From Microcaldota archaeon (lineage in GTDB: Archaea > Micrarchaeota > Micrarchaeia > Norongarragalinales > SBBD01), in the NCBI GenBank assembly GCA_016212475.1, contig JACRGC010000014.1, positions 62,001-126,000 on the forward strand: 64,000 nucleotides of DNA, given 5' to 3'. The notes below the pieces were generated by a model. That model searched no databases. It saw only the letters and a list, made by a program, of their open reading frames with translations, and was not told where the DNA came from. This document shows, one piece after another, positions 10,218-64,000 of the stretch. Position 1 is the stretch's first letter. Each line of letters opens with the position of its first letter. The position numbers were made by a program, and so were the translations under genes.

Positions 10218-10262
10218 TTTGTTGGATGTTAGTGATTTTTTTTGACTTTCTTCCCAAATCCA

Positions 10263-10273: not shown

Positions 10274-10296
10274 CAATTTCATTTCAGCTGATCCTT

Positions 10297-22526: not shown

Positions 22527-22535
22527 CAAAATTAC

Positions 22536-37312: not shown

Positions 37313-40300
37313 ATGGTTGTCATCCAGCGTAAGAAAGACCAGTTTACAATCACCTTGCCAAAAGATGTTGTAAGCCTCATGGGTTGGGATAAGGGTGTTG
37401 AATTGTACCCCTACCCTGACGATAAGGGAAACCTGATTTTGAAGCAAATAAGTGCAACCGAAAACCCCCCTCTTGAAAGCGATTTGCAAAAAAAGGCAAT
37501 TGGAAAGCACAAAGGCCAAAATGCAATGCTCTTTCCGATGTTTGTTTTGCTGCTTGCCTGGATTGTTTATTTTTTTGTCCAGGGGCTGCCCCTAGCCTTA
37601 AGTGTGCCGATCATGACCGGATCGGAAATAATTGCGCCAATTGATTTTTCGGTCTCCCCAATACCTATTGCAACAATCGACCCAACTCCGAACACTACTC
37701 CTATCCCTTCGCAAACCCCTTCCCCCAACATTTCCCCCTTTCCATCAGATACTCCTTCGCCAATGCCGACCCCTTCAGCAACCTTTTCTCCAACCCCTTC
37801 TGAAACCGCTTCGCCAGCGCCAACCCCAACAACTACTCCCTTCCCCGAATTTTCGCCTTCCCCATCTTCAACTCCGCTTCCAACTGAAGTTGCTTCGCCT
37901 TCCCCAACTCCGACTTTTTCGCCAACACCTACGCAAGACCCTTCCCCAAACATTTCGCCTTCCCCAACAATCGAATCCCCTTTGCCATCAATCGATGCTT
38001 CGCCATTCCCATCCACCAATCCATCTCAAACCCCTTCCCCAAACATTTCCCCATTCCCCTCCGATAATCCTTCGCCAGCCCCAACCCCTTCGGCAACATT
38101 TTCCCCAACCCCTTCCGATTCTCCTTCCCCTATGCCAACCCCATCAACCACTCCCTTCCCCGAATTTTCACCATCCCCAACCGGTTCTCCAAGCCCATCT
38201 GAAATGCCTTCTCCTGCGCCAACGCCTACATTTTCTCCAACTCCTTCCGTTTCAATTTCTCCTTCGCCAACCGCAACAATAATTCCAATTGAAGAAAACG
38301 CATCAATTTCCCTTAAATTAAATCCAACTGCAACTCCTTTCCCATTCATCCAATTCGACCTGCTCGCAAACCTAAAAGCATTCCTTGAGCCATTAAACGG
38401 CGAATCAATCTCCCTATTCCTGAATTCAATTTTCTTTGGCAACCAAACAACCAATTCTTCAGGGGACGCGGTATTTTCCCTCAACCTATCCGAAGGGAAT
38501 TATTCAATACTGGCAGTATACGAAGGAAATTTGGAAAAGAACATTTCGGCAATAAATGCAAGCTTGGATTTAGTCCTGATTTCTCCAATTGTAAATGAAA
38601 CCAACCAAACCCTTGATTACTCCGGAAACCTATTTGCAGATACGTTCCCGCAAGGCGCAAATCTTTTCCTAGATGGTCAATTCCAATCGCTAACGCCATC
38701 AAACCTAACCAATCTCACAATTGGCTACCATTCCGTCCTAATCAACCTCTCCAACTATTCGCAGTATTATGATCCGGCATTTTACATTGCAAATGACTCG
38801 AGTTTATTTGTCAATCTAACCGCTTTTGCATTTTCGGATTCAGCTCTCAATCTAACCAACCAATCCGAGTTTAATTTCACAAAAGGCAAGCGCAAAAAGC
38901 CAACGCAATTCAGCGTGGTTTTCAAGAACAAGAAAAAAAGCTACAAGATAGGGGAAGAGATCGTAATTGATTTGGATTTGCGGGACGATTCCAACAAAAA
39001 AATCAATTCGGGCTCATTCAAGGCCTTTTTGGTATCCGAAGATGGCCAACATGAAGAAGAAGTGGCTTTAAAGGACATTTCGTCAGGAAAGCAGTTGATC
39101 ATTCCGCCCCAAAACTCAATTCAGCCGGGTTATTATTCCATAAATTTCCAAGCGCAGTTCCAAAAGAAAACAATTGTCAAGAAAAACCAAGCAAATGCTC
39201 CTGCAATTGCGCTTGATGTCAACCAAACTTTAAACGGATCGGATCAATTAACCCGAGCTATTCCAACAATTCCAATTCCCTCCATTGAAGAAACCGCCCA
39301 ATTCCCAGGTGCAAAATCAAATGGGAATTCTAACAATCAACCCGCTGCAAATCAAAATCCAAATTCCGCTCAAAATCCAATTGCGCCCCTAAATGAAATC
39401 GCGCCCCAACTCGCCCCCGATGAAATTGAAATAGTTGAAAACGTTGCGGACGAGGGCGAAGTCGATGGCTTTTTCTATGGCCTTGTAAATCTCAACACTG
39501 AAAAAAGCATCTACCTTCCAGGAGAAATTGCAAACATAACGATTGGAGTCCTAAACCCGGACGGTTCAAGGGCGGATTCGGCAACAATTGATGTGCAGAT
39601 TACCTCTCCGACTGGAATAGTTTCAACCTTCTCCACCTACCCTGGAATTATTTCCGACAATTTCAATGGTGAATATTCACTCGCATTCCCTGTCACTGAA
39701 ATCGGAACGTATTTAGTTTACGCCCATGCGCAAAAACCAGAAGTGGGAATCGATTCAGATTTTTCAGATGCATTCGAAGTGCGTTCAAGCAGGGTTTTTG
39801 ACATAAAAAGAAAAGAACCCACATTGATTGAACTAGGGCTAACTCCGGTTACAATTGAAATCACTCCAACTCAAGATGTTTCAAATGCAATTGCCTATGA
39901 ATACATCCCAAGTTCATTTACAACCGGCCCATCATCCCTTTCAGTTACTGATATGGGCAATGGCTACAAGCAAATAACTTTCAATTTGGGAAATCTCAAC
40001 GCCGGCCAAACAAAAACAATTCAGTACTCCTTCGAACCGCCTGCACTTTCCCCGATGCTTTACCTAAATGGCAGGATGAAAATCGAATACGATGCAGGCG
40101 CAATATTTGAAGAGGCGCGCAACTGGACAATTGGAGCTGATGATCGTTTTTTCATCCATGAATTTTATTTCTACTTCAACCAAACCTATTCTGCAGCAAC
40201 GCCCTACCCATGGGAGCCCACCGTTCTTTGCGTAAATCATCCGTATAACCTGACCGTTGGAATCGTCAATGGCATTTCTGCAACGGATGTTGATAACGTT

Positions 40301-43300
40301 TCAATCCAATCCTCAATTGGAGGCCCCTACACGAATCTTCCATCCAATAATTGGGTATTTTGGGCTGGTGATGGAAACCCGCATAATGTGAGCTGGACCG
40401 CTTCAACTACTTCCCCCACATTTGGCTACAGCACAACAAACTTTACGATCAAACCCACCGTAACTGGCTCATACTCCCTTCGAAGTTTCATGGCAACCCG
40501 TAACGGAGTTGTCCAGTTCTCAAGCAATGTAGTTACAGTAACCGTTAGGAACTGCACCCAAATAGAAATTGCAAACAGGGATGTTTCTGTTCGGGGCCCG
40601 GATGGGACGCCGGACATCCTGATGCCCGGCTCAACTGGCTATGTTGCAATTCCGCTATTCAACTATAACCAAACAAATGATTTGAATTCAATTACCGCAA
40701 CCCTATCTATTCTCCAAGGAGCAACCGATCAGGGCTGGTATTTGGAGGAAGGATCTACGCAGCTTTTGAACTTTTCAATTTCCGGGTACTTAGGCAACGT
40801 AACCCCCTTCTTCAATGAAAGCGTGGCGCTTTGGAGGGTTAGGGTTCCGGATGCGGCAGATACCGGACAAACCTACACTGCAAAAATCGTAGTAACCTCC
40901 CCCGGTCAAGCAACAACTTACACTCGTGATTTTACACTTCAGCCCGAATCCGTTGTTTTGTTCACATCATCGGATGATTATGTTGGTAGCACCAATGAAG
41001 ATGCACAAGAGCATTTCAACATGTCCTTTGTAGCCTGCAACTATGGGGATTCTGCAATTACGGATGCAACTATCCAGATAGATTTTCCAACGGCTTATTT
41101 TAATTTCATAAACGCCTTTCCAAACAACAATACGCAATTAAGTTTATCGCCGCAATGGACCAATGTGAAAATAGCTACTTCGCAATGCTGGGGTGGGATT
41201 TTGCGGTTTGATCCAATCGATCTGAACGGGCTTGGGCATCTTTTTACAACTACTGTTTCATGGAGCTCTGGGACAAAATCCGTTTCAGATGACCGCTCGG
41301 TTTTCCAGCCATCCGCGCTTGCCGACAATACTTTCCCCTTCGTCAGGTTCTCTGCTGACAATATTACCTACATGCCAAATGCATCAGTTACGCAAAACTC
41401 AACGGTTAACGTCTACACTAAAATAATCTGGATGGGGGGCACTACGGGAGTTAAAGACGCCAATTTGCACATAGTTAAAACAAATCTGGCGCAGGGCTTT
41501 GTAAAGCCTTATAATTTCACGCAATTTTCTCCACTTCCCGGCTATCCTGTAGGTTCGGTTGGCGAGGGTTGGGTTACAAAATACGGCAGCATTTCAGTTG
41601 TTACGGAAGGAGGCACCAAAGAATTTACCTTCACAACAAATGCCTCGGCAACCCCGGATTTCCAGCCCGGAGGGAAGAGATATTTCTTTTCAGCTAGGGG
41701 ATCGGCCGGAGCGGAAACAGCAGCCGGAAACCCCAACCGTTTCAAGCTTGATGACAATAAGTACGCATTAGTGGTGCAGGGCCCATTTCTCAAGTCATTG
41801 AATTATTATTCCTCGGCTCCAAGCGGAACCCCTACTTTAGGGATGCCATCGACCTTTTCCTGCGGAACTTACAATATCAGCACGGTTTTGTTCAATAAGG
41901 GAAACCGTGACGACTTACTGCTAAACATAACGGATTATTTTCCCTCATCAATCACTCCGGCCAATTACTCCCCCTCCGTCATAAATATTACATCATTAAA
42001 TGCGACGTGGGGCTCTTCCATCAACTTTACCGCCAATGGAACCGCACACCGGCAATCCTTTAATTATTCATTTGTTGCGCCCCTTGGCTCCTTTACAAAT
42101 TCGCAGTTCCAACTAAAAGCCTACAATGGAACTTACCCTGCAAAGCATGATGGCCAGCTGTTTTATGTAAACCTCTCATGCACGGACCTTCCGCAATACC
42201 AAAACGTTTCAGTTACGCCAGCTTCTTCAGGGTTTGGATTTAGGAAGGAATTTTCAGTTGCGGTATATTCCGTTTTCCACAACCTTACGGTAAACCTTTC
42301 AAAATCGCCAGATGGTTTGACTAATTGGTCGGTAATCAATACGACCACTGCGATTTCTACTGGCAGCTGGGCCTATGCAAACTTCTCCCAGTCATTTACC
42401 TGCACAGACATCGGCTCTTGGTATTACAATTTCACGATTTTTGATACGGATGGCAATATCAATACAACAACGGTTTCGCTTGGGACAACCTATACTGTAA
42501 CCAAGGATACTTTGCAAATAAACCTGATAATCGGAAACGCCTCCCTTGCAAACAGGAGCAGTTCCAACAACGACCTTCTTAGGGTTTTGGTAAACGATAC
42601 AAACGGCACATATCTTGGGAACTATGGTCTTAATTTTTCAGTAACATATGACGGGACAAATTACGGCCCAGCTACCCTTAACAATACAAACACAACCGGC
42701 TATTTGGATTACAATTTCAATGCAACCTGCAACCAATCAAACACACAATATGCATCAAGGCCCGACCAAAGCTGGAAGGTTTCGCTTGTAGGAAGCTCCT
42801 GCTATAATGACATCACTTCAACAATTTACGCCCTTCAAATCAAAGGCTATTTGATAAACAATGTAACCAACCCTTCGGGAACATCTAATTTCACAGACCC
42901 AATTGAAATTGTGGGCCAGGGAAATGTGCGGGATGATTGCGGCAATTTCATCTCGCCAGTTGAGGATTCATCAATTGCAACCGTTTTCAACTTCACTGCA
43001 AACAATACAAACAGGCTTTTCAATGGAAGCTCGCTAGGAGGAGGCTTTTACGAGGCAAGGTGGCCATCATCCGAAGATAAGATGGGCGGCTATTACAACC
43101 TAACAATGAATACTTCCGCATCAAAATACTACGGAGCTTTCACAACACAAGTAGGCCCCGACCCCGCATATCTATTCTATTTGTTTGCAAAGCCAAAGCT
43201 TGCGGGCCCATTCGTAAATCCAATTGGCCAGGGCTGGGGAGTTCCTGTAAATTATTCTGTCAATTATACCTCGCCGGTTTGGAACATCAATACAACTGCA

Positions 43301-46300
43301 AGGCTAACTTTAAGGTGCCCAAGCTGCTCTCCTGCAGTCCCCTCATTTGAAGTAACTCCGGCGAGTTTTTGCGTTGGATGCGTAAACAAGACCTCCCTTT
43401 GGACCTACAATTATACCTGCGCCGCTGGCAATTCACAAGTCGGAACCTGGTTCTTTACATATTCTGCAAACACTTCCGATGGGCTTTCAGCTTCCTTATC
43501 TGAAAATTCAACAACCGTTGGAAAAGACCTGATAAACTATACGCATATCCGCGGAAACAACACAATTGTCAACAGATCCGGAGAGCAGGTTGTCAGGTTC
43601 ACCCTCAACTTGTCTGATATGTCAAGAGGCACTTTTGCAGGTTCGCCAGCTGCAACAGTAACTTTTAATGTATCTTCCAATTCCACCTACAATTTAACGG
43701 CGGGAACCAACACCACAAATTCAACCGGGTCTGTGGATTTCTATTTCAATGCAACCTGCGACCATACGCCTGGCAACCAAAGCTGGTGGGCGCAGGTTTC
43801 CTCGGATACTTGCTATGTAGATACGTTATCCCCAAGATTCAATGTGTCGGTTTATGCCGATTTTGCTTTTGCAATATCCACACTTAACGGCACGGGCGCG
43901 CAATACACAATTGGCCAAAACGTGACCCTTACATTGGCAACCAGGGATGAATGTTCGGTTCTTGCAGGCAATGCAACCGTTGGCTTTAACATAACCGGCA
44001 TTTTCAACATGACGCATTGCGCCGGAACCGATATCGTAAATGATTTCAACGGGTCCTATTCGTGCACTTTCAATACCAGTTCGCTTGCAGCAGGCAGCTA
44101 CAATGTTACTGCAAATGCCTCCAAGGAGTATTTCAATTTCAACAGCTCGCTTGCAGGCAGCGTGTTCCAATTGTTTTCCCCAAACAATACCGCGCCAGTA
44201 ATAATCAACATAACCGAATATCCCTCTCCGGCAGGCTGGGGGGAGCAGCTTAACTTTTCCGCAAGGGTCCAAGAGCCCGAAAGCCAGGATGTGATTTTGG
44301 TGCTATATAATGCAAATGCATCAACCGGCCCGTTTAGCATCTTAAACCAATCCCTTTGCGCAACTTGCGCAAACACTATTGTAAATTACACGGTTGAAAA
44401 CAAATTCACCTGCAGTGATATTGGCCTTAAGCATTTTGTTTTCAATGGCACGGATACCCAGGGGACGAATGGCACTTCGGGAATTTCGAACTGGACAATT
44501 GAAAAGGACAATGTCACGATTTCCTACATTTCCGGCAACAGCCAAAATGTCACAAGGCAAAACGGCACAATCACGCTTGCGCTAAATGCCTATGATTATG
44601 ACAACCGGTCCGGTGCAGCCAATGCGAATGCAACAATTTGGGTCACAACCAATTCAGTTGCATTTGATTCCGGCAATTTCACACAGGCAAATTCATCTGG
44701 CAATTTCAGCATAATTTTCAAGCCCTCATGCAGTTACGCTGTTGGTTTGCACAACTGGAGCGGCGGGGTTTTGCTTGATGCATGCTACGCCCAGGCAAAT
44801 TCAACCCAAAACTATTCCTTCTTTGTAATTGGCGCTCTCAACAACAACGTAACATTCCCGCTTGGCCAAAATTATACTGCGGGAACAAACGTAACTCTTA
44901 GGGGAAATGTCACGGATGATTGCGGAAATGCAATTACCGGGGCGGCAATCAACTTTACCGTGCAAAACGGAGGCGGCCCATTTTCCTGTCCTGTTGTTTA
45001 TGAGGAAGGCTTTGGCTCTTACAATTGCTCAATCAACACAACTACGCTTGGCGGAGGCGATTATAGGGTTTTCATGGGTTCATCTAAGCTCCACTACACA
45101 AACGGCTCCACACAAAAACAAAACGCATTCAAAATCGCAACTGCCCCCGTTCTAACGAATCCTCTTGCAAACCTCACATCCGTTTATTGGGGCGCTTCAA
45201 TTGAGTTCAATGTCACGGTAACGGACAAGGATGACAACGTCACCGTTTCACTTTGGGAAAAAGCGCCCGGAGCTGCCGAATACACCTTCATTACATCCCA
45301 AATCTGCACAAACTGCACAAATTACAACCTTACCTTTTCGGATTCGACCCATAGCGCCTGCACGGATTTTGGGCAATGGCAATTCAAATTCAATGCAACC
45401 GATACTGTCAACTTCACGGATCAGACGACTAACAATACCTTCAACCTAACCCCAAGGAACCTAACCTTCCAGCAAATATCCGGAAACAGCTCGGTTGTGC
45501 ATCGTGTTACAAACACTTCCTCACTTGCTGTAAAATTCGTTGACGCTATTGATTCCGCCCAAGATATCGGGACGGGGGTTTCAGGAACGCTTTATGTAAC
45601 AACCGATGGCGGCGCAGTTTCCTATGTTTCCGGAGGCGCAAACACATCCCTTAATGGAATCATCCGAAGGGCATTTGATCCAACATGCAATTGGCAAGTT
45701 GGCCCGCAAAGCTGGAAAATAGAATCAGCTGCAACCTCTTGCTACTTTGGCGTCAATTCTACGGTTTACAATATTTCAATTATAACGGATACGCCAAACA
45801 ATACAATTGTTGCTCCGGTTAGCGGGGCATGCTTTACTCCAGGAACGCAAATCATAATCAATTCAACAATCAAGGATGAATGCTCCGGCATTGCAACAGC
45901 AACCGTTTCGGGAACAGTTAGGCAATCCGGAAGCTCCTCAGCTTGCGGAACAGCTACGGATCTGGGAACCGGCAATTACAGCTGCGTTTGGAATTCAGCT
46001 GGCAGAAGCTACGGCCTTTACAACGTCACAATAAATGCCAGCAAGCAATACTACACAAATTCAACAAACACATCAATTGATTCCCTTCGGCTTGCAGCAG
46101 TTCCCGAGCTTAACGATCCGCGGGTAAATGTTGGCGTGGATGGCTGGGGAAAAGCTCGGACTTTTAACATTACCGTCAAGGATCCATCCGGAGACACCAT
46201 AAATGTTTCGCTTTGGGTTAAGCCAAACAACAGCAATGTGTGGCAGTTTAGGGGCTCGCAGCTTTGTCCTTCTTGCAGTACGTACACCAACCTCACCTTT

Positions 46301-55300: not shown

Positions 55301-58300
55301 TTCGATCCTGGCAACCTGAATTTGACGGATTCAACCGGCAATGTGACAATCTACTTCAATCCATCCTGCTCCTATGCAGTTGGGCCGCAGAGATGGACCG
55401 GAGGAGCTGTCAATGACACTTGCTATAAGAATTCTCCTCAAACAAACTATTCCTTGAATATTTCCGGGCAGTTAAGAAGCGACATCCTGAATCCAATCTA
55501 TCTTCAAGAATTCAACAAATCAAACCAAATCCTAATCCGATTAAATGCATCTTCGGATTGCAGCGCAGAAGGGCTTATCACAACTGTAACCCCTCTTGTA
55601 ACTGTTGTTTCGCAAAATTCCACATCGCACAGCTGCACGCCTATCCAATCCGAAGCAGGCGGCAACGCAGGACTTTACAACTGCACTTGGGATTCATCAA
55701 ATAGGGCGCAAGGGAATTATTCCATCCAGCTAAATCTTTCAAAGCCGGGGCTTTACGCATCAAATTCCACGCTTTACAGCTATTGGTTTTACCTAAAAGA
55801 TGTCGCGCCAATTGCGCAAAACGCATCCGTCAACCCATCAAGCGGAGGTTGGAGCCGTGTTTACAATTACACCTTGCAGGTTTCTGATGATGCGGGCGAT
55901 AACGTCACATGCACGCTTTTCGTTTCATCCGATGACCAAGCAACCTGGCAAAACAAGGGCACAACAATTGTGAATGGGCAGGGCAACTGCACAATTTCAG
56001 TCAACAACTTGGCATGCGGAGAAATCGGCGAGGACAACTGGTTCAAATGGCACATCATAAACGGCGAACCTGCAAACCAATTCAACACATCGCCGGTTTA
56101 TGGCCCCAATCTTTCAACAACAAACATCACACTCCAGCACGTCCTTGGGAATGGGACTTCCGTGAACCGGAGCAATGCCGCCCAGCTTTTGCAGATGCGC
56201 ATTTACGATTCTGAAAACCAATCCTACGTGCCAAGCGGGGTCAATTTGACTTTCTGGCAAACAACAGATGGGTCGACCTATGATTCGGGCAACCAAACCC
56301 AATCCAACGCATCAGGACATGCAGGCACATATTTCAACCCAAGCTGTTCTTATAGCGCAGCGCTTCAAAACTGGTTTGCCGGTTCAACGGATAGCTGCTA
56401 CACGCAAACAAACTCATCCGTTTTCAACGTAACCGTCCTTGCAAACATGAATATCAATTTCCTCTCGCCGGTTTCTTCGCAAAGGTTTGCAATCAATACC
56501 AATGTAACGCTTAGGGCAAATGTGACTGATGACTGCTCTTTGCCTGTGCTATCCGCCGCAGTACTTTTCAACGCATCAAAATCAACCAATACAATCTGCT
56601 CGAACGTTTTTGATGAAGGCTCCGGAACATATAACTGCACTTTCAACACTTCGGGAAAACCATACGGGACTTACAATGTCACAACCAATGCAACAAAACT
56701 TTTCCACAACTTCAAGACGAATTCAACTTCCAGCAGTTTTGTAATTGCCAGCATTCCAACCCTAACCCTGACAAATGTTACGCCCGGAGTTGGCGGCTGG
56801 AGCGAAAATTTCACATTCTCAGTAGTTGTCGATGAGCCCGATGGCGATGTAGTAACACTTAAGCTTTGGGAAAACAAGATTGGCTCGGCAGAATCAAGCA
56901 TTTACACAACAACAGTCAATGGCACAGGCGTTTCCGTAACCTTCAATTATTCCCACGGTGTGTCATCGGCCCGCGGCAATCACACCTTCAAGTGGAACGC
57001 AACAAACAATGACGCACCTGTGCAGACAAATTACACAAATTACACAGTTGAAAAGGATGATGTTATACTTGAATATTCCCTTGGGGCCAACATTTCAATC
57101 CATAGGCCCGGCGCAGATATTGCCGAATTCAAAGTTCGGGCAAGGGATATAGATGCGCAGGGAGTTTCCTACCTTGGAGGCGGATTTTCAGGAAGGCTAA
57201 ACCTTACAACAAATGGATCATCATACGCTTACTTTGATTTGTTCACGGACCCATCCGGCTATTTGGACAAGAACGATTTCGACCCCGATTGCAGTTACCT
57301 TCCAAGGGCCCAAAAATGGTTCATGAGCATTTTTGAAAACAGCGATTACAAAGCTGCCAACACCACGGTTTATGATTACAACATCACCGGCACGATGAAT
57401 GCCACTTTAACCGCCCCATCCGGCCAGAAATTCTTCCGGGGCCAAAACATCCCTCTTAGGGGATATGTCGAGGATGATTGCCAATTGCCAGTGAATAGTT
57501 CAACTGTTTTGCTATCCTCAAGGCCATCTACCGGATCGAGCACGGTCTATTCCTGCTCGCCGGTTTACGACGAAACAACCGGGTATTACAATTGCACAAT
57601 CCCCTCGGTGGATTCTGCCGGCCTGGCAATTGGGCCGTACAATTCCACAATCAATGCGGCCCTAGAATTCTACAATTCCTCCCAAGAAGTGGTTTTGAAT
57701 GCCTTCACACTGACGGCAAAGCCAACACTTGAAAATCCCGCAGTTGATTTCAGTTCTGAGGATTGGGGTAGGCTTAGGACCTTTTCAGTAACTGCAAATG
57801 ATCTTGAAGGGGATAATGTTACCGTTTACCTATGGAAGAAAGTAGGCTCTGGCCAATATTCCCTCCTAAACCAAACAACTTCCACTTACCTAAATCCAAC
57901 CACAGTTTTGTTCAAGCACAGGTTCACATGCGCCGACATTGGCACCAACTATTTCAAGTTCAATGCAACTGATGCAAGCAACAACAACACGAATGAAACG
58001 GATGAAACTTCATTTACAATTACCGCAGAAACCGTGCAGGTCCAATTCTCAGCAGGAGCTGGGGGCACAATCAACCGTGAAGGCACATCGAATGGAACTT
58101 TCCGTGTGCGCATTTTCGATACGCACAACAATACCTTCCTTGGCGCAAACAACAACATTTCCTTCTGGGTAACAACCGATGGGGTAAATTATGATTCCGG
58201 CTCAACTGTTTTAACGGATGCAAACGGATACGCATTTGATTTCTTCGACCCATCCTGCAGCTACTCTGCCGGTTCGCAGCTCTGGTTTGCAGGCACGCTT

Positions 58301-61300
58301 GGAAATATTTGCTACCAAGACCTCAATGAATCAGGAACGCACTCCTTTAATGTCAGGGGCCAGATGAAAAACGACATAATTTACCCGCCAAATGGATTCA
58401 TTGTGCCTGTAGGCGACAACCTTACAATATCAACTAATGTAACCTCCGAATGCCGCGATCCAAGAAATTCGGCAGCAGTTGGAATCCAATTGATTTCCCC
58501 CGCAGCAGTTCTTGAAACTTGCATTGGTGTAAGCGGACTTGGGGGCGGGGGTTTCAATTGCACAATCAACACCAGCAACAAGCAAGGAGGCAACTGGAGC
58601 ATAAAATTGAATTCTTCCGAGACAAATTTCCTCTCAAACACAACAACCTATGCCAATTGGACTTTCTTCTCAAACACTCCCCCAACTTACCAAAACCAAA
58701 GCGTAACGCCAACACTTGGCGGATGGAGCGAAGTATTTTCATATTCGGTTTTTGTTTCGGACCCCCAATTGGATCCGGTTAGCTGCACGCTCTACACTTC
58801 AACAAATGGCGGAATTACAAATGTGAGCAGGGGCAATGCCTCGGTTTCAGGGGCCGGAACCTGCATTGTAAACGTTACGGCATTCACTTGCGGAGACATT
58901 ACCGCAAATACGGTTTTCTTCTTCAATGTAAATGATGGGACAAATATTTACAATACATCTGCAAATACCTCCATGTTCCAAATTGAGGCAAACGATGCGC
59001 AAGTGCAATATTCGTTTGGAAATGCATCGACAATCAATAGGTCGGATAACCTTGCAACCAACCTAATTGTCCGTTTAATAAACCAAGACAACACCTCCAT
59101 GAATCCAAATTCAGCAAACATCACATTCTGGGTGACAACAAACGGATCAAGCTTTGATTCCGGAAACCTTTCGCAAACCAATAGCTCCGCCCATGCGCAA
59201 ATTCTCTTCAATCCATCCTGCAGCTACAATACGGGTATCCAACTATGGAAAGCTGGGACAACGGATGTTTGCTACAAGCCTGCAAATTCATCCAATTTCA
59301 ATGTGACGGTCATTGGGAATTTGCAATATAATTTGCTATCCCCAACCGGAGGGAATTTTGGCAGGGGAACCAATGTCACGATTCGTGCAAACATCACGGA
59401 CGAGTGCTTTGTATCCCAGCCAACTGGAGTTGCACTCCTTTACAATTACACGAGGGATCCGCTAACATATTCGTGCTCACCAATTGCAAACGAATCAAAC
59501 GGCGCCTACAATTGCAGCTTCAATACAACAAGCCTTAATGCAAAAACCTACAACCTCACGGCAATTTCAAGCAAGCTTTACCTCAATCCAAACACAACTA
59601 CTTTTATAGATGCATTCCGCGTGCAAACCTCGCCAGTGCTTTCATTTGCCCGAGTGAACACCTCTACTGAAGATGGGAACGATAGCAGCGTTGGAGGCTA
59701 CTCGGAAACTTTCAATTTCTATGTGAATGTGACCGATGAGGATGGCGATGCGGTAACCGGCGCACTTTACCTGCGGCAAGGGGTTGGCTCTTGGAGCCTT
59801 GTTTCTTCGCCTAGCTGCTCATCTGATTGCAACAACACCCAATTCAGCTTTGCAAAATCCGATTTCGCATGCCCCGCCCCCAACGATTTGGGAGAGTGGA
59901 ATTTCATGTGGAACGCAACAGATTCGGCCGGGCTTAATGCATCGGCCGGAGTCATGAATTTCACAGTCGAGCAAGACGACATGCGGCTAGAATACATAGC
60001 AGGAAATGGCACGACGCAATATAGGAACAATACCGAATCAACCGTGCTTTCGGTTAGGGTGTACGATATCGATGACGCCAGGTATTTGGCACTTGGGGAA
60101 GCATCGGGAATGCGCTGGGTCACAACAAATGGTAGTTTGCAAGATTCCGGAACGGGCCTATCCGTCCTGTCAAATGCCTTCTTCAATTCCTCGTTCGATT
60201 CGACCTGCAGCTACAATGTCGGGCTCCAGAAATGGAGAATCGGAACTACGAGCAATGTTTGCTTCAAATCCGTAAACTCATCTGATTTCAATATTACTCT
60301 AAGGACGAACCTGAGCGTAACGATCAGCATGCCAAACGGCCAGGCATACAATCGCACCTCAATTGTCCCTGTATCATTCACTGCAATGGATGAATGCTCT
60401 GTTGGAATTGCCGGCGCATCAACATCTCTTGTATTTACGGGGGAGCAAAACAATTATTCAGCTACTTCCGGATTTGTCGATTTGCTAAACGGCACGTACA
60501 ATTATTCCTTTGATACGAACGGAAAAGCATTCGGCGGATATAACATAACTGCCCAGGCAAACAAGACCTATTACGATTCCAAGAACGGCACAAAAGCGCC
60601 GGGCTTTAGAATTATAATAAACCCGGATTTACAATCCCCAACCGTTAACCATGTATCTGCCGGCTGGGGCGAAACATGGCAATTCCAAGTCCAATGCAAG
60701 CAAAATGACAACGAGGCATTCAATGTCACGCTCTACAAACGCCTAAACTCCTCATCGTCCTGGGCTGCTTTGGAAACCCAAACCTGCCAATCAACAACTT
60801 ATGATACAAAAACCTTTACCGAAACCCTCTCTTGCGGCGATGTGACGCCATCAGGAACAACAGAATTCAAATTCAATGCAACGAATGCTTACGGCCAATC
60901 AACCGAAGTTACCGGTTCGACCTTTACCGTTGAAAAGGACGATGTTTCCGTAACATACTATGCAGGCAACGATGAAAATTCTACAAGGGAAGGATCAACA
61001 ACTACTTTGCTAAAGCTAACCATTGCAGATACGGATAGGGGTTCAACACTTGTGGGCTCCGGAATAAACACCTCGTTCTTCATCACAACCGATGGGACGA
61101 ATTTTGATTCGGGCACATACAATACCACGGATTCCCAAAGCAACACCTCCTACTATTTCGATTCCTCTTGCACTTACCTTCCAATGCAGCAAAAATGGGC
61201 CGGAGGAGTGCAAAACGATGCCTGCTACAAGAACAAATTATCTAGCAATTTCACAATCAATGTTTACGGCCAATTAAAGAACAATTTGCTTGTGCCAACA

Positions 61301-64000
61301 TTCCAGCAGCAGTTCAACAAATCAAACCAAATACTTATTCGGTTAAACGAAACCACGGATTGCCCAGCAGAAGGCGGAGTTGCCCAAACTGCAACAACAA
61401 TCCGGGTAATTTCATCGAACAATTCAATTTACTCCTGCTCTTCTGTAAACGATGAAAACAGCGGGCTTTACAACTGCACTTGGGATTCGAACAGCAAGCA
61501 GCAGGGCAATTATTCCATCCAGCTAAATTCGAGCAAATCTTTCTACAATTCCAACTCGACCCTCTATTCGCAGCAATTCTATCTTCGGGATGTCCCCCCA
61601 ATTGCGCAAAACCTATCCGTTACTCCAACCGGCGGAGGATGGAGCCGGCAATATAATTATTCATTGCAAATCAATGATGACGCTGGCGATAATGTCACAT
61701 GCACGCTTTTCATATCAACCGACAACCAAACAACCTGGCAAAACAAGGGAACTTCGCAGGTAAACGGCGCTGGCAATTGCACGGTTTCAGTAAACAGCCT
61801 AACATGCGGCGAGATGGGCGTTGACAACTACTACAAATTCTACATTATCAACGGCGAACCGACCAATTCGTTCAATACATCATCAGCCTACGGGCCCAAC
61901 CTGACAACTAGCAATGTCACGCTATTCCATATAGTTGGAAATGAAACTTCGGTCAACAGGAGCAATGCAGCGCAGCTTTTGCAGATGCGGATTTATGATT
62001 ATGAAAACCAATCCTACCTCCCATCTTCTGTCAACATCACCTTCTGGCAAACTACCGATACAATAAATTATGATTCAGGAAACCAAACAACCACGAATTC
62101 CTCGGGAGTTGCCGGCACATACTTCAATCCAACCTGCTCTTATAGCGCTTCCAAGCAATTGTGGGTTGCCGGAACTACGGATAGCTGCTACACGCCAACA
62201 AACTCATCCGCATTCAATGTTTCTGTAATTGGGGATATGAAAATAAATTTCCTTGCGCCGGTTTCATCGCAAAGGTTTGCAATAAATTCCAATATTACCC
62301 TAACCGCAAATATAACCGATGATTGCGCATTGCCCGTTTCATCGGCATCCGTTTTCTTCAACACCTCAAGGACAACAAATACTATCTGCTCGAATGTCTT
62401 CTACGACGGAAATGGCGGATACAATTGCACCTTCAACACATCCGCAATGCCATATGGCGCATACAATATCACAACGAATTCAACCAAGAATTTCCACAAC
62501 TTCAAGATGAATTCAACATCCAGCAATTTCATAATTGCAAGCATCCCAACCCTTACGCAATCCAATGTCACTCCGGGCCTTGGAGGGTGGGGCGAGAATT
62601 TCACTTTCTCAGTAGTTGTCGATGAGCCGGATTCCGATACCGTAACATTAAGGCTTTGGGAAAACAAGATAGGTTCGGCGGAAACAAACCTTTATACAAC
62701 ATCTGTCAATGGCACGGGCGTTTTAGTAACGTTTAATTATTCCCATGGAGTTTCTTCCGCCCGCGGCAACCATACATTCAAATGGAATGCAACAAACAAT
62801 GACGCGCCGGTTCAGACAAACTACACAAATTATACGGTTGAGAAAAACGACGTTGTTCTTGAATTTGTTTCCGGGGCCAATTTCACAATCCATAGGGCGG
62901 ATTCCTCATCAACCGGGCTTGCAATCCGTGCAAGGGATATCGATTCGCAAGGCGTAGTTTACCTTGGCGGAGGATTTTCAGGAAGGATTAATGTAACAAC
63001 AAACAATTCATACGATGGCTCTTATTTTGACCTTTTCTCCGACCCATCCGGGTATTTCAACAAGACGGATTTTGACCCCGATTGCTCGTATGTCCCAGGA
63101 TCCCAATCATGGTTTGGGACAATTTTCGAAAGCACCAATTACAAGGCGGCAAACACAACAAATTTTGCTTTCAATGTAACGGGAGATACGAATGCAACCT
63201 TGCTTTCACCCTCCGGCCAGCGCTATTATCGAGGCCAAAACATAACCCTTAGGGGGATTGTGCAAGATGAATGCAGCAACTATTTGAATTCATCAACAGT
63301 TGCATTGAGCGCAAGGATCAGCACGGGCGCAAGCGCAATCTACACTTGCAGCCCGGTAAACGATGAAGGCAGCGGCTATTTCAATTGCACAATTCCTGAC
63401 GTGGATTCGGCAGACCTTGCAGTTGGGAATTACAATGTCACAATAAATTCAACAAAAGCTTTCCACAACCAATCGCAAAAAACAAATCTCAATGCATTCA
63501 CGTTGACTGCAAGGCCTGTTCTTGTAAACCCAACAATTGATGCATCAACCGAGGATTGGGGCTATCTCTATACCTTCTCCGTAACCGCAACAGACATCGA
63601 GGGCGATAATGTTGCTGTTAATTTATGGAAGAAAGTAGGCTCTGGCCAGTATTCCCTTCTAAACCAAACAACCGGCACGTACCTTAATCCAACTTCGGTT
63701 TCGTTCAAGCACAGGTTCACATGCTCAGATATTGGCCTTAACTATTTCAAGTTCAATGCAACGGATTTCAGCAACAACAACACAAACGAATCCGACGAAT
63801 CCGCCTTTACCATCACAAAAGAGCTCGTCCAAACCCAATTCGTTTCGGGCGCCGGATCAACAATTGATCGTGACGGAAATAGCAATGGAACATTCAAAGT
63901 CAGGATTTTTGATAATCACCTAAACACCTACGTTGGCTCTGGAATAAACGTAAGCTACTGGGTTACAACGGAAGGATCCACTCAGGATTCTGGGAATGTC
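37313..64000 (+). CDS. Giant modular surface protein, 3' end outside window
   Basis: One reading frame of 8,896 codons without a stop, still open at the right edge. Anchor motifs at 44729, 50519, 59219 and 63083 are all in the same frame, so I see no frameshift. Residues 1-46 are an AbrB/SpoVT-like swapped hairpin (FTITLPKDVVSLMGWDKGVE, then LILKQI). Residues ~72-102 form a membrane helix. ~112-327 is a Pro/Thr/Ser stalk. ~330-700 holds cysteine-free beta domains, one PEGA-like (LFLDGQFQSLTPSNLTNLTIGYHSV in two parts). A further linker and Ig-like domains follow. From about 42190 on there are at least 22 modules of ~320 residues with conserved cysteines. N-x-S/T sequons are dense throughout. 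Probable topology: N-terminus in the cytoplasm, everything after the helix outside. Likely an adhesin, stalk or cell-surface fibre. No enzyme domain is visible. Confidence 0.9.
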   Translation, partial: MVVIQRKKDQFTITLPKDVVSLMGWDKGVELYPYPDDKGNLILKQISATENPPLESDLQKKAIGKHKGQNAMLFPMFVLLLAWIVYFFVQGLPLALSVPIMTGSEIIAPIDFSVSPIPIATIDPTPNTTPIPSQTPSPNISPFPSDTPSPMPTPSATFSPTPSETASPAPTPTTTPFPEFSPSPSSTPLPTEVASPSPTPTFSPTPTQDPSPNISPSPTIESPLPSIDASPFPSTNPSQTPSPNISPFPSDNPSPAPTPSATFSPTPSDSPSPMPTPSTTPFPEFSPSPTGSPSPSEMPSPAPTPTFSPTPSVSISPSPTATIIPIEENASISLKLNPTATPFPFIQFDLLANLKAFLEPLNGESISLFLNSIFFGNQTTNSSGDAVFSLNLSEGNYSILAVYEGNLEKNISAINASLDLVLISPIVNETNQTLDYSGNLFADTFPQGANLFLDGQFQSLTPSNLTNLTIGYHSVLINLSNYSQYYDPAFYIANDSSLFVNLTAFAFSDSALNLTNQSEFNFTKGKRKKPTQFSVVFKNKKKSYKIGEEIVIDLDLRDDSNKKINSGSFKAFLVSEDGQHEEEVALKDISSGKQLIIPPQNSIQPGYYSINFQAQFQKKTIVKKNQANAPAIALDVNQTLNGSDQLTRAIPTIPIPSIEETAQFPGAKSNGNSNNQPAANQNPNSAQNPIAPLNEIAPQLAPDEIEIVENVADEGEVDGFFYGLVNLNTEKSIYLPGEIANITIGVLNPDGSRADSATIDVQITSPTGIVSTFSTYPGIISDNFNGEYSLAFPVTEIGTYLVYAHAQKPEVGIDSDFSDAFEVRSSRVFDIKRKEPTLIELGLTPVTIEITPTQDVSNAIAYEYIPSSFTTGPSSLSVTDMGNGYKQITFNLGNLNAGQTKTIQYSFEPPALSPMLYLNGRMKIEYDAGAIFEEARNWTIGADDRFFIHEFYFYFNQTYSAATPYPWEPTVLCVNHPYNLTVGIVNGISATDVDNVSIQSSIGGPYTNLPSNNWVFWAGDGNPHNVSWTASTTSPTFGYSTTNFTIKPTVTGSYSLRSFMATRNGVVQFSSNVVTVTVRNCTQIEIANRDVSVRGPDGTPDILMPGSTGYVAIPLFNYNQTNDLNSITATLSILQGATDQGWYLEEGSTQLLNFSISGYLGNVTPFFNESVALWRVRVPDAADTGQTYTAKIVVTSPGQATTYTRDFTLQPESVVLFTSSDDYVGSTNEDAQEHFNMSFVACNYGDSAITDATIQIDFPTAYFNFINAFPNNNTQLSLSPQWTNVKIATSQCWGGILRFDPIDLNGLGHLFTTTVSWSSGTKSVSDDRSVFQPSALADNTFPFVRFSADNITYMPNASVTQNSTVNVYTKIIWMGGTTGVKDANLHIVKTNLAQGFVKPYNFTQFSPLPGYPVGSVGEGWVTKYGSISVVTEGGTKEFTFTTNASATPDFQPGGKRYFFSARGSAGAETAAGNPNRFKLDDNKYALVVQGPFLKSLNYYSSAPSGTPTLGMPSTFSCGTYNISTVLFNKGNRDDLLLNITDYFPSSITPANYSPSVINITSLNATWGSSINFTANGTAHRQSFNYSFVAPLGSFTNSQFQLKAYNGTYPAKHDGQLFYVNLSCTDLPQYQNVSVTPASSGFGFRKEFSVAVYSVFHNLTVNLSKSPDGLTNWSVINTTTAISTGSWAYANFSQSFTCTDIGSWYYNFTIFDTDGNINTTTVSLGTTYTVTKDTLQINLIIGNASLANRSSSNNDLLRVLVNDTNGTYLGNYGLNFSVTYDGTNYGPATLNNTNTTGYLDYNFNATCNQSNTQYASRPDQSWKVSLVGSSCYNDITSTIYALQIKGYLINNVTNPSGTSNFTDPIEIVGQGNVRDDCGNFISPVEDSSIATVFNFTANNTNRLFNGSSLGGGFYEARWPSSEDKMGGYYNLTMNTSASKYYGAFTTQVGPDPAYLFYLFAKPKLAGPFVNPIGQGWGVPVNYSVNYTSPVWNINTTARLTLRCPSCSPAVPSFEVTPASFCVGCVNKTSLWTYNYTCAAGNSQVGTWFFTYSANTSDGLSASLSENSTTVGKDLINYTHIRGNNTIVNRSGEQVVRFTLNLSDMSRGTFAGSPAATVTFNVSSNSTYNLTAGTNTTNSTGSVDFYFNATCDHTPGNQSWWAQVSSDTCYVDTLSPRFNVSVYADFAFAISTLNGTGAQYTIGQNVTLTLATRDECSVLAGNATVGFNITGIFNMTHCAGTDIVNDFNGSYSCTFNTSSLAAGSYNVTANASKEYFNFNSSLAGSVFQLFSPNNTAPVIINITEYPSPAGWGEQLNFSARVQEPESQDVILVLYNANASTGPFSILNQSLCATCANTIVNYTVENKFTCSDIGLKHFVFNGTDTQGTNGTSGISNWTIEKDNVTISYISGNSQNVTRQNGTITLALNAYDYDNRSGAANANATIWVTTNSVAFDSGNFTQANSSGNFSIIFKPSCSYAVGLHNWSGGVLLDACYAQANSTQNYSFFVIGALNNNVTFPLGQNYTAGTNVTLRGNVTDDCGNAITGAAINFTVQNGGGPFSCPVVYEEGFGSYNCSINTTTLGGGDYRVFMGSSKLHYTNGSTQKQNAFKIATAPVLTNPLANLTSVYWGASIEFNVTVTDKDDNVTVSLWEKAPGAAEYTFITSQICTNCTNYNLTFSDSTHSACTDFGQWQFKFNATDTVNFTDQTTNNTFNLTPRNLTFQQISGNSSVVHRVTNTSSLAVKFVDAIDSAQDIGTGVSGTLYVTTDGGAVSYVSGGANTSLNGIIRRAFDPTCNWQVGPQSWKIESAATSCYFGVNSTVYNISIITDTPNNTIVAPVSGACFTPGTQIIINSTIKDECSGIATATVSGTVRQSGSSSACGTATDLGTGNYSCVWNSAGRSYGLYNVTINASKQYYTNSTNTSIDSLRLAAVPELNDPRVNVGVDGWGKARTFNITVKDPSGDTINVSLWVKPNNSNVWQFRGSQLCPSCSTYTNLTFIDETFTCGNYVTNSSWDFMFNATTSLCTSLTNQSSVANFTMQQDDVNVVIGASISTVNRDGASSGYLRLYVNDTDNSSIVGAGVNGSFWITTNGSIIDSGYFNQTNASGYFNYDFNPSCTYNARQQVWRGGVLNDICYKSKNSSDSFLDVIGQVHVAILIPENNSIFNVTNNVTLRYNVTSECLVQEGFLNTSITNATFIHNQTLANYLCDPTYNESNGFYNCTFGTSNRPQGNYSILVNASMPYYNSNVTLFSNRFYLKNVITNSTTPIVNNSMGGWGQAYQFNTTIYDPEGESVTCQLFTNTSSNFDYKGNATIANGQGTCAVSIHSFSCQDMRNNSGFMFQIINGEPTNTFNTSINTTLNLTQDTVAVALAFGNASVVNRSGSNLTTLSLRVFDNDNQTYLPAQTNATIWITTNNINFDSGNATQTNSSGHATISFNPTCSYSVGPQIWAGGTFGDACYFNANSQNMTLTIQGELNVNITSPLGNLISIGQNVTIRGNVTDDCGVPVAGANVNLSIRDGGNAIACANVIDEGSGMYNCTFNTTALVGGTYMAFMNASKQYYFLSQTSKANSFHISAAPHLSNPVANLSAVYWGASILFNVTVWDEDDNVTVNLWQKLPGAAEYSFISSQICTNCTNQTLTFTDSSHVTCSDFGTWQWKFNATDTQSLIAQTINKTFDLERRNLTATVSLGNNSVVHRVLNTTALNARFLDFVDGSDLPDGVTGTLYVTTDGSATYVASGTNSSVDGVVSRAFDPTCSYIVGPQRWLISVPQTSCYYATNSTNFNLSIITVPFNNTIISPISGACYTPGTSVLINTSIRDECSGVASGTVETTIKRGASTFACGSSTDLSAGNYSCNWDSTGRSYGLYNITVNSSKQYYENASNTSITSLRLAAVPQLNNPLVNIQADGWGVKRTFNITVFDPSGDTINVSLWVKPNNSNVWQFRGSQLCPSCSSGSGTNLTFVDEIFTCGNFASNITWDFMFNATTSLCTSLINQSSVSNFTLEQDDVTVIVGASASSINRDGSANGILRVYVNDTDNASIVGSGVNGTFWVTTSGSVFDSGVFNQTNSSGYFNYNFNPSCSYSASSHNWKAGVLNDICYKNKNSSASGLDVIGQVHVSLLLPENNSLYNVTNNVTVRYNVTSECLAQEGFLNTSITNATFIHNQTLANYLCSPTFNESNGFYNCTLDTSNKPQGNYSIMLNASMPYYNSNVTLFENRFYLKNIQTTAQNLSVNRQAGGWGLAYQFNVSVFDPEGESIACNLFVNTSAGFKYQGSSVIPNGQGNCTVTVGNFTCGDLHNDSQYFFQIVNGEPSNTFNTSINADLNLTADNLTIDFVSGQNSFVNRSGGNFSSIVMRFFDTDNQTYDPQINGTIWVTTDGASFDSGNQSQTNSSGHLQIYFNPSCSYSAGIQTWKIGSTNNCYLPLNTTTSSLTIFGSLINNITLPFGQEILRGQNVTINASVATDCAVPVTDATVNFSARHNNSMQLYGCSGVLAFSSGNYSCTFNTSQMYAGAYNVTFNSTKPFFNNETFAQEFSLGATSFWVETISQFGNVVVAPNPGGYGETYYLTANVTDEDNDTMTIYSFVRQLTPTLGEWTLAGSVTRQGQNQSVNFSKTFGSSGDIGDWQAMLNSTEDDLANNGSSTYYNFTIERDDTRIDHYLGNSTTVSRLGSNATRFIVRVVDTDRPATNIASEEGRIWVTTNGSLFDAGAQVFTNSSGWIDTTIFNPDCNYQVGLQQWKAGLLDGSSLFKPSNSSNFNVTITSEFVPALSSPLNLTFLRGVDNLNFRANITDIGGCGLVSGATVLVAPDTGYTCNAVDEGNGFYNCTAPNTTTAGWTYGYHNVTVNASRSHYSNSSVTRTIAFYLASRPTLSSPAVIPSSGGWGGQFNFSVTVTDLDDNNVTVYLFKRKSGNSTWVFLQTQSCSSCSSTSLNFVQTFNNTDVGASEYFFNATDQYGYTTNTSISSFTIAKDTVTLEIESGVNSVVNREGSSTTPLVLRVFDQTLGAYVGSNVNASFFVTLNGIVFNTPQNTTSNSSGHIALNFNPDCTFASGIQRWRGGVQNDLYYSDSLTSNFSLNVTGQLMVNLSTPLNGSTFFTSDQISIRSNVTTDCSAEGPLNASTVTIQIQSPTNATELCTPVLNEGNGHFNCTWDSSGKSPGVWSIRLNATNSTYNPNSTLFFERFTLVNAQPSYANVTVTPSSGGWSRLFTYSVNVTDPDGNAVNCSLYTSTDNGNSWTLQGQNYTLPYGNGTCQFNVSNFVCSEIGTDNYFKFNIYDYQSGSVLNFFNTSNTEGPNLTAPTLSLQHFIGNETSINRSNGAQLLSVRFYDSEKGAYLNGSINGTVWVTTDGSNYDSGNATQTNSSGYLQAIFNPSCSYNAAKQKWIIGSTDSCYQIANTSQFNVSVFADIKNTLLLPNGANYPRGTNVTMRANLTDECGISLTDAQVNLSYRRAPNDFSCTPVENEATGAYNCSFNTTSLAARFYNVTINSSKAFHNLNSTLFTSIFRIQTSLTLNEQFVNTSNEDGNTGSTGGWKETFNFNVSVTDEDNDLVTAYLFIRQGYSGDWTLVSTRTCSSNCNATLLTIPKSNFACGDIAGWQFFWNASDGNFSANLTPTNFTIERDDINLTYISGDAETIWRNGSQSTTLSMQVRDLDNANTLIGTGLASGTRWVTYNGSEYDGGIGVTTSSGFFNSSFDPTCTYSPGIQGWKIGTTANSCYKEVNSSVFNITFQTNMSVAIARPLGVNYTRGSRVPVDFNVTDECLNPVNSTTPVLYFAGPSLYTENSGFTIFGNGTHNFSWDSSGKEYGYYNLSVQVDKQYYSQANTSRTNSLQLVAGPELQLASLDKALGGWGETFIWSVDCRQTDGEIFNVTLWKRLNSTYDWSAVETKNCTGVDFVTKTYTETFACGDITPSGSSQWKFNATNQWGFGTELSASAFTIEKDDTDASLVAGSGIVVGREGSTVGRLALQILDTDKSSAPVGAGVNASIFVTTNVAQFDPGNLNLTDSTGNVTIYFNPSCSYAVGPQRWTGGAVNDTCYKNSPQTNYSLNISGQLRSDILNPIYLQEFNKSNQILIRLNASSDCSAEGLITTVTPLVTVVSQNSTSHSCTPIQSEAGGNAGLYNCTWDSSNRAQGNYSIQLNLSKPGLYASNSTLYSYWFYLKDVAPIAQNASVNPSSGGWSRVYNYTLQVSDDAGDNVTCTLFVSSDDQATWQNKGTTIVNGQGNCTISVNNLACGEIGEDNWFKWHIINGEPANQFNTSPVYGPNLSTTNITLQHVLGNGTSVNRSNAAQLLQMRIYDSENQSYVPSGVNLTFWQTTDGSTYDSGNQTQSNASGHAGTYFNPSCSYSAALQNWFAGSTDSCYTQTNSSVFNVTVLANMNINFLSPVSSQRFAINTNVTLRANVTDDCSLPVLSAAVLFNASKSTNTICSNVFDEGSGTYNCTFNTSGKPYGTYNVTTNATKLFHNFKTNSTSSSFVIASIPTLTLTNVTPGVGGWSENFTFSVVVDEPDGDVVTLKLWENKIGSAESSIYTTTVNGTGVSVTFNYSHGVSSARGNHTFKWNATNNDAPVQTNYTNYTVEKDDVILEYSLGANISIHRPGADIAEFKVRARDIDAQGVSYLGGGFSGRLNLTTNGSSYAYFDLFTDPSGYLDKNDFDPDCSYLPRAQKWFMSIFENSDYKAANTTVYDYNITGTMNATLTAPSGQKFFRGQNIPLRGYVEDDCQLPVNSSTVLLSSRPSTGSSTVYSCSPVYDETTGYYNCTIPSVDSAGLAIGPYNSTINAALEFYNSSQEVVLNAFTLTAKPTLENPAVDFSSEDWGRLRTFSVTANDLEGDNVTVYLWKKVGSGQYSLLNQTTSTYLNPTTVLFKHRFTCADIGTNYFKFNATDASNNNTNETDETSFTITAETVQVQFSAGAGGTINREGTSNGTFRVRIFDTHNNTFLGANNNISFWVTTDGVNYDSGSTVLTDANGYAFDFFDPSCSYSAGSQLWFAGTLGNICYQDLNESGTHSFNVRGQMKNDIIYPPNGFIVPVGDNLTISTNVTSECRDPRNSAAVGIQLISPAAVLETCIGVSGLGGGGFNCTINTSNKQGGNWSIKLNSSETNFLSNTTTYANWTFFSNTPPTYQNQSVTPTLGGWSEVFSYSVFVSDPQLDPVSCTLYTSTNGGITNVSRGNASVSGAGTCIVNVTAFTCGDITANTVFFFNVNDGTNIYNTSANTSMFQIEANDAQVQYSFGNASTINRSDNLATNLIVRLINQDNTSMNPNSANITFWVTTNGSSFDSGNLSQTNSSAHAQILFNPSCSYNTGIQLWKAGTTDVCYKPANSSNFNVTVIGNLQYNLLSPTGGNFGRGTNVTIRANITDECFVSQPTGVALLYNYTRDPLTYSCSPIANESNGAYNCSFNTTSLNAKTYNLTAISSKLYLNPNTTTFIDAFRVQTSPVLSFARVNTSTEDGNDSSVGGYSETFNFYVNVTDEDGDAVTGALYLRQGVGSWSLVSSPSCSSDCNNTQFSFAKSDFACPAPNDLGEWNFMWNATDSAGLNASAGVMNFTVEQDDMRLEYIAGNGTTQYRNNTESTVLSVRVYDIDDARYLALGEASGMRWVTTNGSLQDSGTGLSVLSNAFFNSSFDSTCSYNVGLQKWRIGTTSNVCFKSVNSSDFNITLRTNLSVTISMPNGQAYNRTSIVPVSFTAMDECSVGIAGASTSLVFTGEQNNYSATSGFVDLLNGTYNYSFDTNGKAFGGYNITAQANKTYYDSKNGTKAPGFRIIINPDLQSPTVNHVSAGWGETWQFQVQCKQNDNEAFNVTLYKRLNSSSSWAALETQTCQSTTYDTKTFTETLSCGDVTPSGTTEFKFNATNAYGQSTEVTGSTFTVEKDDVSVTYYAGNDENSTREGSTTTLLKLTIADTDRGSTLVGSGINTSFFITTDGTNFDSGTYNTTDSQSNTSYYFDSSCTYLPMQQKWAGGVQNDACYKNKLSSNFTINVYGQLKNNLLVPTFQQQFNKSNQILIRLNETTDCPAEGGVAQTATTIRVISSNNSIYSCSSVNDENSGLYNCTWDSNSKQQGNYSIQLNSSKSFYNSNSTLYSQQFYLRDVPPIAQNLSVTPTGGGWSRQYNYSLQINDDAGDNVTCTLFISTDNQTTWQNKGTSQVNGAGNCTVSVNSLTCGEMGVDNYYKFYIINGEPTNSFNTSSAYGPNLTTSNVTLFHIVGNETSVNRSNAAQLLQMRIYDYENQSYLPSSVNITFWQTTDTINYDSGNQTTTNSSGVAGTYFNPTCSYSASKQLWVAGTTDSCYTPTNSSAFNVSVIGDMKINFLAPVSSQRFAINSNITLTANITDDCALPVSSASVFFNTSRTTNTICSNVFYDGNGGYNCTFNTSAMPYGAYNITTNSTKNFHNFKMNSTSSNFIIASIPTLTQSNVTPGLGGWGENFTFSVVVDEPDSDTVTLRLWENKIGSAETNLYTTSVNGTGVLVTFNYSHGVSSARGNHTFKWNATNNDAPVQTNYTNYTVEKNDVVLEFVSGANFTIHRADSSSTGLAIRARDIDSQGVVYLGGGFSGRINVTTNNSYDGSYFDLFSDPSGYFNKTDFDPDCSYVPGSQSWFGTIFESTNYKAANTTNFAFNVTGDTNATLLSPSGQRYYRGQNITLRGIVQDECSNYLNSSTVALSARISTGASAIYTCSPVNDEGSGYFNCTIPDVDSADLAVGNYNVTINSTKAFHNQSQKTNLNAFTLTARPVLVNPTIDASTEDWGYLYTFSVTATDIEGDNVAVNLWKKVGSGQYSLLNQTTGTYLNPTSVSFKHRFTCSDIGLNYFKFNATDFSNNNTNESDESAFTITKELVQTQFVSGAGSTIDRDGNSNGTFKVRIFDNHLNTYVGSGINVSYWVTTEGSTQDSGNV
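37649..38293 (+). repeat. Pro/Thr/Ser stalk with ~315-base internal duplication
   Basis: The encoded stalk consists of TPSP-type phrases. A block that starts at 37712 (TPSPNISPFPSD...) recurs at 38027, an offset of 315 bases or 105 codons, with mostly the same order of phrases (PTPSATFSPTPS, then TTPFPEFSPSP). This points to tandem duplication inside the stalk. Such regions usually span a cell wall or S-layer and are often O-glycosylated. Confidence 0.75.
45152..50941 (+). repeat. Two-fold duplication of a three-module block
   Basis: 45152-48046 and 48047-50941 are related copies. Anchor cysteines are displaced by 2889, 2895 and 2892 bases. A 68-base run is identical between 46181-46248 and 49070-49137, and further near-identical stretches occur around 46850/49740. 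The near-identity at DNA level marks this as the most recent duplication seen in the array. Confidence 0.85.
52451..64000 (+). repeat. Six-module superrepeat, two copies (second incomplete)
   Basis: Sequences in 52451-58255 recur about 5,790 bases on. Matching landmarks are 53879/59669, 55811/61601, 56972/62762 and 57841/63634 (offsets 5790-5793). Protein matches are closer than DNA: the stretch starting at codon 56972 and its partner at 62762 encodes the same 28 residues with many third-position differences. This copy is therefore older than the three-module block upstream. Confidence 0.85.

Follow-up and report, generated by a model that had tools for sequence, protein, structure and literature searches.

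A putative SPEARE-type protein of 12,372 residues from a micrarchaeon that joins an Ig-like body to a HerA-like ATPase

How DPANN archaea attach to and use their hosts is a long-standing question. A locus of a Microcaldota archaeon (Micrarchaeota; genome G000, 1.37 Mb in 17 contigs) raises it anew: what is encoded by a reading frame that runs off the end of the window, and what might so large a protein do? The window is the whole 64,000-nucleotide stretch that was analysed (G000:C12:62001-126000, within a contig of 187,032 bp). From the evidence below we infer that the protein acts in transport or in contact with a host, and that it probably helps the cell to touch a partner cell or trade material with it. 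The source is a tiny DPANN archaeon; the same protein type is known already from related parasitic archaea, and this member is unusually long.

Extent and layout of the giant gene

The frame starts at an ATG (37313), six bases downstream of an in-frame TAA, and extends beyond the window to end at window coordinate 74431 (gene at C12:99313-136431 of the contig). The product has 12,372 residues, a mass of ~1.33 MDa and a pI of 4.7. The initial annotation described a frame open from 37313 to the window end, of at least 8,896 codons; this holds, and the frame continues to 12,372 codons. A chance open frame or frame artefact is rejected, as the five remaining frames across the same DNA carry 437-755 stops each. 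The annotation would have yielded to stops in the frame or to misassembled repeats; the gene includes neither an internal stop nor an N, and collapse or duplication of repeats by the assembler appears unlikely because the modules are divergent (~29% identical), Tandem Repeats Finder detects no near-identical array in the gene, and orthologs in independent genomes are colinear. The features of the locus are as follows (window coordinates, strand, description):

36263..36862, minus strand, divergent neighbour: secreted or anchored protein of 199 aa, 48% identical to a 208-aa protein of the G001 giant-gene cluster
37261..37268, plus strand, TATA-box-like TTTAAATA, 45 bp ahead of the ATG
37313..64000, plus strand, in-window part of the giant gene (8,896 codons open to the window end; stop at 74431)
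37313..37462, plus strand, residues 1-50: AbrB/MazE-like domain (Pfam MazE_antitoxin, E=0.02, below cut-off)
37517..37621, plus strand, residues 69-103: hydrophobic N-terminal membrane anchor (hydropathy)
37640..38302, plus strand, residues 110-330: Pro/Ser/Thr-rich stalk (31% Pro; no Lys, Arg or Cys)
38300..41866, plus strand, residues 330-1518: head with PEGA and MG2-like domains (Pfam)
41867..64000, plus strand, residues 1519-8896: in-window part of the module array (modules 1-23 and part of module 24)
beyond the window, plus strand, residues 10171-11975: conserved tail with a NEW3-type domain (Pfam)
beyond the window, plus strand, residues 11976-11995: transmembrane helix (hydropathy)
beyond the window, plus strand, residues 12000-12372: cytoplasmic HerA-like ATPase of ~375 residues (Pfam)

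The TATA-box-like element is consistent with a start at 37313, a fit that is not significant on its own, and translation may instead begin inside the frame, at the ATG of codon 72 or of codon 76. The choice bears on the N-terminus. Read from M1, residues 1-50 lack sequons and cysteines and are predicted to be cytoplasmic; a PDB search with this AbrB-like region returns nothing, and no counterpart is found among 19 related genomes, including some cut short at the giant gene. The helix that follows is preceded by a Lys/His-rich segment and has no such residues after it, which argues for an N-in/C-out orientation, and since it begins at residue 69, behind the AbrB-like domain, it has the look of an anchor that is not cleaved. 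Initiation at codon 72 or 76 would leave a signal-like N-terminus; SVXNc_0300 has a Sec signal peptide there.

The predicted extracellular body and the C-terminal ATPase

The body is dominated by an array (residues 1519-10170) of 27 contiguous tandem modules, each of ~322 aa and three Ig-like folds. Pairwise identity among the modules averages 29% and reaches 74%; a three-module block (4-6) is duplicated as 7-9 (55-70%) and a six-module block (13-18) as 19-24 (46-74%). Structure prediction of a single module, a check proposed in the initial annotation, gives all-beta sandwiches for one module and the next domain (AlphaFold2, pLDDT 89); by Foldseek the model resembles tandem Ig and macroglobulin-type domains as well as the extender from a large bacterial adhesin. 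Several cysteine positions are shared by 21-25 of the 27 modules and may form disulphides. Sequons number 733 in the ectodomain compared to 285 expected by shuffling (sd 14), or 2.6 times expectation, and are absent from the first 70 residues and from the ATPase domain; an AglB/STT3 homolog is encoded in the same genome. The stalk, Ig-like modules, sequons and cysteines of the annotation are thus all present, the last as recurrent columns with presumptive disulphides, and an extracellular, glycosylated, Ig-like body of adhesin type is supported by these sequence features. An Ig domain is ~4 nm long; the 81-domain array is estimated at ~300 nm in contour, and the entire ectodomain, folded back as a hairpin, could extend ~200 nm.

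The last 3,476 residues, which lie outside the window, include a second transmembrane helix and a HerA-like ATPase, and they alter the meaning of the giant protein. Pfam places DUF87 (44.5 bits, cut-off 23.2) and HerA_C (38.4 bits, cut-off 22) at the C-terminus. A profile of 15 ATPase homologs has archaeal HerA as its best PDB match (E=1e-13), and the modelled ATPase of an ortholog (L039; AF2 pLDDT 87) has only HerA among its best Foldseek matches. The Walker A P-loop, the Asp-Glu of Walker B and an SQ motif are invariant in the alignment of the 15 homologs, and the Walker motifs of the giant protein look intact. Named families fit less well: (i) the NCBIfam HerA equivalog scores 31.8 of 800 bits, (ii) TraC scores 31.8 of 567 bits and CedD is also far under its cut-off, and (iii) T4SS-DNA_transf reaches 19.3 of 20.1 bits, with no VirB4, TraG or VirD4 model above its curated cut-off. 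With HerA, TraC and CedD far below the NCBIfam cut-offs, the domain is assigned to the HerA/FtsK superfamily and to none of these three families. The restriction endonuclease originally proposed for SPEARE proteins was considered, and no such family matched well.

Most of the protein, thousands of residues, is predicted to lie outside the cell, with a transmembrane helix toward the C-terminus, and the charges place both ends inside. Together with the distribution of sequons and the hydrophobic N-termini that precede the ectodomain in the Aenigmatarchaeota orthologs G338a and G341a, this suggests that the ectodomain most likely forms a loop fixed to the membrane at each end, not a free-tipped fibre; the double anchor requires either M1 as the true start or an N-terminal helix that stays uncleaved. 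Accounts of the locus as a very long extracellular fibre or adhesin are therefore retained for the glycosylated, adhesin-type Ig-like body and doubted for the simple free-tipped fibre, as each end appears to be membrane-anchored or cytoplasmic.

A DNA-uptake device is one reading of such a molecule. The loops would capture partner cells or free DNA, and a HerA-like ring would pull the DNA in as a supply of nucleotides or genes. CedB-type ATPases pull DNA into cells of Sulfolobales, the HerA/FtsK relatives are DNA translocases, and CedD is among the NCBIfam matches. By contrast, no CedA-like channel gene was seen beside the giant gene, and the ectodomain comprises Ig-like, PEGA and macroglobulin-type folds with no nuclease or DNA-binding family detected by Pfam. 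DNA uptake is accordingly considered quite improbable.

Relatives and neighbouring genes

The ATPase family is present in all 5 of the phylum-level groups screened, mostly DPANN, at very different rates. At E<=1e-40 its members occur in 6 of 301 Micrarchaeota genomes, 55 of 156 Aenigmatarchaeota (phylum of G303), 66 of 371 sampled Pacearchaeota (phylum of G312) and 2 of 394 sampled Euryarchaeota (phylum of G313); at E<=1e-20 it occurs in 24 of 34 Nanohalarchaeota (phylum of G305). Other very long frames encode 12,145 (G485), 12,056 (G640), 11,262 (G338), 11,249 (G341) and 10,914 aa (G477), and the lengths of many relatives are lower bounds, since their genes are cut at a contig end. The G338 and G341 proteins of Aenigmatarchaeota are full-length, colinear orthologs of the same architecture, with identities of 27% in the head (residues 720-1517) and 34-42% in the tail. 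Their N-termini have several hydrophobic segments ahead of the ectodomain, and the module array is present in the two of them, with 20 full modules apiece, as well as in several relatives that are truncated. In an ATPase tree without an outgroup, the giant micrarchaeal copies fall within an Aenigmatarchaeota clade (support 96/94), of which the simplest reading suggests acquisition from Aenigmatarchaeota. Beside the clade of micrarchaeal giants sits a family member (L097, G411) with a very acidic ATPase (pI 4.8; 27% Asp+Glu ahead of the ATPase), as in halophiles.

A paralog in the same genome (G000:C14:24042-36887, up to 4,281 aa) clusters in the tree with other Micrarchaeota. This second giant has a signal-like N-terminus, a Pro-rich stalk, a repeat-rich and Ig-like ectodomain, a transmembrane helix and a HerA-like ATPase, and its own coiled-coil partner is encoded after it. 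In G485 (C8:11518-52129) two family genes, of 12.1 kaa and 1.4 kaa, adjoin each other, and similar tandem pairs occur in other genomes.

The ATPase is the most conserved part of the family (43-65% identity), while ectodomains range from about 200 to >11,000 aa and some members total only about 600-1,300 aa. The giant ectodomain is thus not needed for the core ATPase function, and the conserved function appears to sit in the motor. This pattern weighs against a protein that is mainly an adhesin or surface coat, in which the ATPase would only organise, retract or signal from the anchored protein with no cargo moved. The stalk and adhesin-type Ig modules would suit such a coat, as would the AbrB-like N-terminus if it binds DNA or another cytoplasmic protein; with the motor as the conserved part, this reading is judged very improbable.

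In nearly every locus long enough to show it, a gene for a coiled-coil protein lies directly downstream of the ATPase gene; the exceptions are one intervening gene in L040 and a second ATPase gene in G485. A coiled-coil profile built without the four micrarchaeal sequences recovers the partner of the giant gene at 1e-97 and that of the paralog at 1e-35. The partner is predicted to be cytoplasmic, and its identification as archaellum FlaC/D/E is not supported by Pfam. Many loci then encode a second, ~2,000-aa surface protein; its ortholog in G000 (C12:24878-31003, 2,049 aa, 40% identity) is encoded ~68 kb upstream of the giant gene. The coiled-coil profile weakly matches this second surface protein (E about 1e-5; L055:2076-7931, L048, L049), hinting at a coiled-coil segment shared by the two. 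These are the only genes that recur widely; no channel subunit was seen around the family loci in their conserved neighbourhood.

The neighbourhood bears on a type IV secretion 'straw', as proposed for nanohaloarchaeal giant proteins (PMC10266531), in which the Ig-like ectodomain would bind the host and a VirB4/TraG-like ATPase would inject effectors. The overall plan is as in SVXNc_0300 and BNXNv_0298, the ATPase is weakly similar to TraC, CedD, TraB and TraD, and the two adjoining ATPase-bearing genes of G485 recall SVXNc_0299/0300. However, a coiled-coil gene and not a PF03135-type VirB4 gene follows the giant gene, HerA models outscore those of type IV secretion, no channel gene is conserved nearby, and the N-terminal anchor, which is also present in the Aenigmatarchaeota orthologs, is ill-suited to a free-tipped straw. 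Type IV secretion is thus viewed as unlikely.

Other genes of the region are noted. A type IV pilus-like cluster (C12:142576-147612; secretion ATPase and two membrane platform proteins, named by eye) followed by pilin-like genes (region G000:C12:142576-150988) lies a short way beyond the giant gene and its partner. A link to the giant gene was considered and rejected; the cluster is not among the gene families common to the loci, so its proximity is probably coincidence. Within the window, an MCM helicase gene of 1,846 codons (16989-22529, minus strand) is interrupted by intein splicing domains, which Pfam matches in three stretches, together with a LAGLIDADG domain. Riboflavin biosynthesis genes (8021-11373; RibD by Pfam, others by eye) represent more biosynthesis than is usual for a reduced DPANN genome.

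Proposed mode of action and comparison with known systems

On balance, the giant protein is best explained as a DPANN host- or partner-contact protein of SPEARE type, with membrane anchors at either end and a basal ring driven by ATP. The same plan appears in G338, G341 and the 4.3-kaa paralog, and members of one coiled-coil partner family accompany it at nearly all the examined loci. By analogy to solved HerA/FtsK relatives, the ATPase would form a hexamer, and as a result several ectodomains would stand over one ring. The N-glycosylated Ig-like loops, with a reach of perhaps 200 nm, would bind or tether the partner cell, and ATP hydrolysis, with the cytoplasmic coiled-coil partner, would power polymer transfer (of DNA or protein) where the cells touch, much as membrane-anchored FtsK, VirD4 or CedB motors do. 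As the conserved neighbourhood showed no channel subunit, the term 'translocase' is based on superfamily resemblance. A further proposal is tentative and more doubtful than the contact role: that DPANN archaea possess a contact machine distinct from type IV secretion, in which a HerA-like ring, double-tethered glycosylated loops, the coiled-coil partner and the second surface protein move material between symbiont and host. A single gene in which a giant body of adhesive type is fused with a conserved motor, and which is tied to one coiled-coil partner gene, is a concrete candidate that is testable in cultured relatives.

The known systems that share parts of this plan include: (i) HerA proteins of archaea (PDB 4d2i) and of bacterial defence (8wiv), which have the same ATPase core fold and motifs, whereas the giant protein is membrane-anchored, fused to a giant ectodomain and without an obvious HAS barrel, and has no NurA or Sir2 partner beside its gene, (ii) the membrane-anchored motors VirD4/TraG, FtsK and CedB/CedD, which likewise have transmembrane segment(s) directly ahead of a HerA/FtsK-superfamily ATPase, but which score far below curated cut-offs here where NCBIfam models exist and differ in their conjugation or segregation partners, none of which is seen next to the giant gene, and (iii) giant bacterial adhesins (6xi3), which have a comparable long Ig-like extender array, while the giant protein adds transmembrane-helix anchors, a cytoplasmic ATPase and cysteine-bearing modules that are only ~29% alike.

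The closest likeness is to the SPEARE proteins of Nanohaloarchaeota. Hamm et al. (2019) described these proteins of up to 8,553 aa, stated a laminin-G domain for all of them and remarked that Micrarchaeota and Aenigmarchaeota have similar sequences (PMC6642349). La Cono et al. (2023) reinterpreted the domain at the C-terminus as an ATPase like VirB4/TraG, proposed effector secretion and reported the largest protein of a cultivated archaeon, at 9,409 aa (PMC10266531); proteomic detection and a host-contact role are published (PMC6642349, PMC10266531). Thus, giants of this kind, which had been thought mostly undescribed, belong to a type already known with the same C-terminal plan (PMC6642349, PMC10266531), and open-licence papers searched for a DPANN-wide account yielded the SPEARE papers alone. 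At 12,372 aa, the protein exceeds the cultivated-archaeon record (PMC10266531) and is the longest among the frames screened, with larger archaeal proteins possible elsewhere. By its architecture, the giant protein appears to be a variant of the SPEARE type, of which NAR1_1133 (5,998 aa), a Nanopetramus SG9 protein (8,553 aa) and SVXNc_0300 (9,409 aa) are named members. It differs in that no laminin-G domain is found in Pfam scans over the whole protein, nor any protease or beta-propeller; read from M1, its N-terminus looks like a membrane anchor behind an AbrB-like domain and not like a signal peptide, and its next gene encodes a coiled coil instead of a VirB4-type ATPase. It is further set apart by its length, its micrarchaeal origin and its 27 regular three-domain modules. 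Common to both are thousands of residues outside the cell, tandem Ig-like domains, a transmembrane helix on the C-terminal side and a cytoplasmic P-loop ATPase.
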